IMG/VR virus record: IMGVR_UViG_3300009147_000029
Location: 1-22,638 of that record
DNA from: a virus
Reading direction: 5' to 3' (one strand)
Length of the DNA stretch: 22,638 bases
Part shown: one piece after another, positions 3,876-3,949 of the stretch
How positions within the stretch are numbered: position 1 is the first letter of the stretch
How the letters are laid out: each line of letters opens with the position of its first letter
The notes under the pieces: model-generated
The model's database searches: none
The model's input: only the letters and a program-made list of their open reading frames with translations
Told to the model about the DNA's origin: nothing
Translations under genes and position numbers: made by a program

Positions 3876-3949
3876 TGTTGCTTCCGTTGCGGGTGTTGCT
3901 ACGGGGTGGGCTCGCCCCTTCCATGGCAACACTCGCAACGCTTGCAACA
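3876..3949. promoter_or_regulatory. Symmetric array: three GTTGC then three GCAAC at 9-bp period (candidate operator)
   Basis: GTTGC occurs at 3877, 3886 and 3895, and GCAAC at 3926, 3935 and 3944; both sets have an exact 9-bp period and are mirror images about position 3912.5. The 24-bp arms 3876-3899 and 3926-3949 match as an inverted repeat at 20 of 24 positions. An 8-bp direct repeat AGGGGTGT flanks the element (3871-3878 and 3949-3956), and CCCCGTAGGGG (3865-3875) can form a small hairpin at the left border. The element lies in the 186-bp gap between a minus-strand tail gene (start 3828) and the plus-strand lipoprotein gene (start 4015). No T-tract follows on either strand, so a simple terminator is unlikely. 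A multi-site operator or a structured RNA are both possible; function is inference. Confidence 0.7.

Follow-up and report, generated by a model that had tools for sequence, protein, structure and literature searches.

What does an exactly symmetric set of short repeats do between two oppositely oriented genes of a virus? The window analysed here is the whole stretch of 22,638 nucleotides that makes up IMG/VR record IMGVR_UViG_3300009147_000029, an incomplete virus contig with a structural cassette on its minus strand (terminase, portal, protease, capsid, tape measure and tail module). At 3876–3949 it holds a 74-bp mirrored array in which three GTTGC words (3877–3881, 3886–3890 and 3895–3899) face three GCAAC words (3926–3930, 3935–3939 and 3944–3948), with a step of 9 bp in both halves and a mirror centre at 3912.5. 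The preliminary description of this DNA had reported such an array between opposed genes, ahead of a lipoprotein gene; all six word positions and the centre were reproduced, as were the opposed genes (minus strand, 3475–3828; plus strand, 4015–4413). The features of the region are the following.

3475–3828, minus strand: tail-module gene, assigned to no family, with its GTG start 4 nt past the stop of the ATPase-tail frame
3832–4014, minus strand: open frame, remnant of the C-terminus of a RepA-like ATPase (GRGAYTPVASVASVAMEG...), with a profile match at 3886–4014
3877–3899, plus strand: half-array GTTGC-N4-GTTGC-N4-GTTGC, which comes second in the reading direction of the minus-strand ATPase tail
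3900–3925, no strand: gap between the halves, 26 bp, 69% GC, in the helically phased 25–27 bp class
3926–3948, minus strand: half-array GTTGC-N4-GTTGC-N4-GTTGC, in frame as VASVASVA
3926–3959, minus strand: stretch of 34 nt, 91% identical to the 3′ end of a Pedococcus ATPase gene (locus L130; codons YTPVASVASVA)
4015–4413, plus strand: small FxLYD-like lipoprotein gene, moron-like, an antisense insert (NF038353, below cut-off)
4415–7015, minus strand: gene for the tape measure protein, flanking the array on the opposite side (phrog_4197, 3.7e-57)

Scored as a mirrored 3+3 pattern, the array reaches 30/30, while the best of 100 dinucleotide shuffles of the region reached 24. The exact pattern has a single match in the whole record; with up to three mismatches allowed there are 7 matches against 0.88 expected. 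The mirrored arrangement is thus far above chance expectation.

A search of other genomes for the motif and its neighbours, proposed in the preliminary description, did reveal counterparts, but not beside a counter-oriented lipoprotein gene. In viral contigs, single GTTGC-N4 triplets turn up often, and many of them belong to collagen-like coding repeats of the Gly-X-Y type; therefore only the mirrored form is informative. The mirrored 3+3 GTTGC form is rare, occurring in one viral contig and in nine places in about 85,000 genomes. In four loci located by DNA pattern alone, the array falls within the final codons of an ATPase gene: the viral contig (L123), Pedococcus (L130), a Rhodococcus MAG (L132) and Frigoribacterium (L124). 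In a fifth locus found in the same way, a Promineifilum MAG (L125), it lies 21 bp past an ATPase gene. Arrays with no adjoining ATPase were seen in L126–L129, L131, L346, L352 and L353. Neolewinella persica (L126, L128, L131) and an Omnitrophica MAG (L129) contain many dispersed GTTGCA mirrored repeats of 9-bp period, in 22 and 16 places per genome, respectively, none adjacent to the ATPase. These were rejected as members of the array family, the pattern being common there with no ATPase beside it, and they apparently form a separate dispersed repeat family. One actinobacterial genome (L353, 1501–1556) carries a perfect mirrored GTCAC array with no ATPase within about 1.5 kb, possibly another orphan.

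The window itself turned out to carry a trace of the same gene. Its reverse strand over the array, ...GRGAYTPVASVASVA..., gives the final codons of a gene for a RepA-like ATPase (AAA_25) that carries a winged helix at its C-terminus, and the minus-strand reading AGRGAYTPVASVASVAMEG is the same tail as that of Pedococcus L130, TGRGTYTPVASVASVAFEG. The ATPase profile matches the window at 3886–4014 with E = 5.5e-5, and nowhere else in the record. Only the array and about 20 flanking ATPase codons are left; the ATPase core and the recognition helix are missing from the frame, and the rest of the gene is absent from the contig. The lipoprotein gene fills the place expected for the body of the ATPase. 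Since that body is absent, the window copy is an orphan site, positioned between the tape measure gene and the tail genes, and it may be inert. No relative of the lipoprotein was found in viral and phage collections, nor was a relative of the window with the same junction found in viral contigs and phages. Micromonospora pMLP1, Hiyaa, L234 and L235 share one protein with the window, but have no array there.

The exact GTTGC array is nearly absent from a set of 80 viral relatives of this ATPase. The same mirrored layout is nevertheless found at the 3′ ends of such genes with other words, namely GTCAC, GTCCC, GTCCG, GTTAC, GTTGG, GTTGA and GTGAG. For 125 non-redundant ATPase relatives drawn from viral contigs, bacterial genomes and related loci, an array scoring at least 28/30 was present near the stop codon in 36, compared with 0 of 375 control regions of equal size taken from other parts of those loci and 0 of 1,250 shuffles. 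Words seen in this set include GTTGC, GTCAC, GTCCG, GTTGG, GTCGA and CTAAC. Lowering the cut-off to at least 26/30 gave 54 of the 125 ATPases, 10 of the 375 controls and again none of the 1,250 shuffles. When periods from 6 to 15 were scanned at a score of at least 28, period 9 gave the 36 arrays and each other period gave none. The suggestion in the preliminary description that a protein could step round this DNA is supported by this spacing, which recurs in dozens of related loci. Over half of the relatives score below 28/30, so that the site is either not universal or has diverged past detection.

The array lies at or just past the ATPase 3′ end in Tsukamurella plasmid 5, a Subdoligranulum element, an Enterococcus faecalis element and Streptococcus suis phi-SsuZKB4. 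In L176/L347 the ATPase gene is split across two reading frames and the GTCAC array is still perfect. Arrays in flipped orientation, with CTAAC or GGACA first, occur in L213, L217 and L162; therefore the sets of iterons can face outward as well as inward. Two candidate carriers were set aside: Caldicellulosiruptor pATHE01 has only weak 9-bp arrays (26/30) near the end of the winged helix, and the ATPases of the Microbacterium phages Acosta and Sedgewig have no array at the gene end. In the former, a small plasmid of C. bescii, the related ATPase gene is followed by a 1.46-kb non-coding, repeat-bearing stretch (L335, 2174–3634).

A repeat at the protein level, such as VASVASVA, was considered. 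The first half-array is in frame with the ATPase (PVASVASVA, PVTSVTSVT), whereas the second is read in varied frames (NATNATDAT, QQAQHMQQT, ATQATHAT) or lies outside the open reading frame (L125), and the array-coded tail is disordered in the predicted structure. A protein-level repeat was therefore ruled out, and the constraint is on the DNA. The gaps between the halves cluster at 13–17, 25–27, 48 and 79–80 bp, with a best-fit periodicity of about 10.6 bp (R = 0.79, n = 23; nominal Rayleigh p near 1e-6, with rows that are not fully independent). The commonest phase class is 25–27 bp, to which the 26-bp gap of the window belongs. Between facing units, the spacer bases match at a rate no higher than in non-mirror controls. 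Helical phasing of the gaps, together with spacers free of a pairing constraint, therefore indicates that the array acts as double-stranded DNA and argues for protein binding.

The array-linked ATPases belong to AAA_25 (PF13481), and most have a C-terminal winged helix according to Pfam; some match the AbiEi_4 and IclR winged-helix models. The only PDB sequence match of the ATPase profile is RSF1010 RepA (1g8y, E = 5.6e-10), which is also the best fold match in Foldseek (1nlf, E = 2.4e-11). By these matches the ATPase has a core of the RecA/DnaB-type hexameric helicase family, like that of the RepA helicase (1g8y, 1nlf and 1olo). RSF1010 RepA is not known to have a C-terminal winged helix, and the iterons of RSF1010 oriV are bound by RepC.

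If the winged helix reads the words, its residues should change with them, and the repeat word does appear to change from element to element in step with the predicted reading helix. RQ is found with GTCAC, RT or RA with GTTGC, RR or GR with GTCCC or GTCCG, and GT or GV with GTTGA. Mutual information with the word bases was computed for each of 274 variable columns of the ATPase alignment, the words of roughly one row in three having been assigned by eye. Word base 6, the final one, correlated most strongly with column 319 (z = 8.5; R going with C and G with A), and for word base 4 the strongest correlate was column 320 (z = 7.4, the next column reaching 3.4). In the AlphaFold model of L146 these columns are R326 and Q327, in helix 322–334, the third helix of the winged helix. 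One close pair, L130 (ART, GTTGC) and L225 (AGT, GTTGA), which share 70% of the ATPase core, differ as expected. In an underpowered control for relatedness that compared only divergent pairs, with few same-word pairs among them, column 320 ranked 8th of 297 and column 319 fell outside the top 8. A search for GTCAC arrays by DNA pattern alone gave nine viral contigs, in seven of which the array is at an ATPase 3′ end; three new ATPases from this search carry the predicted residues (L344, RQ; L350, KQ; L349/L351, RQ). This covariation indicates that the C-terminal winged helix is the probable reader of the array.

Several known systems combine such elements. The alpha protein of phage P4 is a helicase-initiator with a winged helix that acts on iterons, and P4 needs a second iteron site. 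P2 Cox and BldC are winged-helix proteins that step roughly 9 bp along direct repeats in filaments. The array system may be likened to these in such general features. In Streptomyces pWTY27, direct repeats with inverted copies lie beside rep and are bound by RepA, as shown by footprinting (PMC3583192). That arrangement, in an actinobacterium, resembles the array; it differs in having repeats of 7–8 bp, a different RepA (522 aa) and a site that is not at the rep 3′ end.

The nearest parallel is with the phage-inducible chromosomal islands (PICIs). Their origins lie directly 3′ of rep and contain two sets of iterons (PMC6092414 and PMC7581432); the latter also describes SaPI Rep as reading iterons through its C-terminal domain. 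The systems are alike in having two sets of short, element-specific iterons and a helicase, here a putative initiator with a predicted C-terminal DNA-binding domain. Three words face three words both in the window and in the ATPase family, and in the family the site is at the 3′ end of the ATPase gene; in the window the body of that gene is absent. The two differ in other respects. The gap between the half-arrays is not AT-rich (GC 0.29–0.86, mostly above 0.5, and 0.69 in the window), the Rep of PICIs and SaPIs is of the DUF927 or D5/Primase_Cterm type where the ATPase here is RepA-RSF1010/AAA_25 with a winged helix, and the array is usually inside the coding end of rep, with a strict 9-bp step and mirror orientation. 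By analogy the array would work like a PICI rep-ori, yet it should not be classed as one, given the other Rep family, the lack of an AT-rich centre and the nesting in the gene. Cch2 of SCCmec, which is related to SaPI Rep, binds through its C-terminal domain three 5-nt iterons (AAGTG) within 23 bp downstream of its own gene, at a putative origin, according to PMC7581432. The iteron step would be 9 bp there too, as 3 × 5 + 2 × 4 = 23, and a half-array here is likewise three 5-bp words in 23 bp; Cch2 differs in its helicase family and in having a single set of three words where the array has two that face each other.

The array-bearing elements also include candidate satellites. L344 and its relatives are elements of about 10 kb with an integrase, repressor, ATPase and array, HNH, TerL, portal and capsid, by PHROGs and ORF order, and an excisionase (Xis) was identified through L345. 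No tail genes were recognised in them, as judged on contigs of about 10 kb. This is the layout of capsid-forming PICIs (PMC10690885), and by that comparison the array is most likely the origin of the L344-type elements. The window differs from such a satellite: it has tail genes, that for the tape measure among them, and an integrase was not recognised in the record.

We consider it probable, from the sequence evidence, that the array is a pair of iteron sets read by the winged helix of a RepA/DnaB-type ATPase, and that it is most probably the replication origin of that ATPase. In complete elements it lies at the 3′ end of the ATPase gene, usually within it. Each winged helix would bind one word in the major groove, and the 9-bp step would stack ATPase subunits along the DNA. 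Two facing sets in helical phase could then position one or more helicase rings, and these would open and be loaded onto DNA lying between the sets or next to them. The data show the array, its family, its position, the 9-bp rule, the helical phasing and the covariation of helix and word; binding, origin function and helicase loading by the ATPase are what we infer.

A protein-binding site need not be an origin. The ATPase could instead bind the 3′ end of its own gene as an autoregulatory operator, blocking or pacing transcription into downstream genes; the array does lie just before the next gene, and winged helices are common in regulators, including the AbiEi_4 and IclR types that some of these ATPases match. 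This seems unlikely, as the reader is a helicase-type ATPase rather than a plain repressor, the site is at the end of a gene and not at a promoter, and two helically phased sets follow the PICI rep-ori plan, yet one protein could serve both roles. Control of the lipoprotein gene, as its promoter or operator, did not hold up: no sigma-70 or terminator match was found, the lipoprotein has no relatives in the viral or phage collections, and the counterparts read are at ATPase 3′ ends, none adjoining such a gene. The preliminary description also raised a long RNA hairpin. Such a hairpin, as a terminator or processing site in the tail-operon transcript that also shields the lipoprotein gene, draws on the position between opposed genes and on a folding energy of −60.7 kcal/mol (z = −4.1), which is low because the words are inverted. 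Outside the words the arms pair poorly (75% over 36 nt), facing spacers match only at the control level, the gaps, of up to 80 bp, keep to the helical repeat of DNA, no stem with a U-tract was found at the window array, no Rfam family matches it, and the words covary with protein residues. An RNA element is accordingly very improbable. The further remark that no standard actinophage site has this layout was borne out.

On the reading of the array as a probable origin, the window copy is either what remains of a rep-ori module that was replaced, or an additional site for a Rep whose gene lies beyond this incomplete record. It is doubtful that the copy has an active role that alters replication of this phage, whether by titrating or recruiting a Rep from a satellite or co-resident prophage or by serving as a P4-like second iteron site. 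Its six words are letter-perfect and its gap is in the commonest phase class despite the lost ATPase body, and the family includes capsid-forming satellites that would need helper tails; a recent truncation would give the same picture, a related phage sharing this orphan was not found, and no helper-satellite pair is known here. Nor is there much to suggest that metagenomic mis-assembly joined the array and ATPase tail to the tail genes. The record is a single incomplete one with no relatives spanning the junction, but the ATPase-tail frame stops 4 nt from the GTG of the next gene, as in a normal operon junction, and the lipoprotein gene fits exactly between the tape measure stop and the array; a chimera is quite unlikely.

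For a large set of satellites and prophages that appear to be uncharacterised in their replication, the array and ATPase provide a likely origin and initiator. They also yield a sequence rule for predicting origins, namely mirrored words in 9-bp steps at the 3′ end of the ATPase gene. An ATPase with a GTCAC/GTGAC array lies near tet genes in L338, L343 and L337 (E. faecalis, S. suis and Subdoligranulum elements), and the module may replicate such resistance-carrying integrative elements. More tentatively, this could be a previously undescribed, broadly distributed class of origin, in which paired 9-bp-period iterons are nested in the 3′ coding ends of RepA-like ATPase genes in satellites, prophages and plasmids, two residues of the helix determine two of the word's bases, and orphan copies in phages plug into or titrate the initiator of another element. 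A small helix-to-word code would predict which Rep fires which origin, and hence compatibility and cross-talk between satellites and helper phages. The orphan array, lying as it does in a tailed phage, offers a concrete candidate for such cross-talk.
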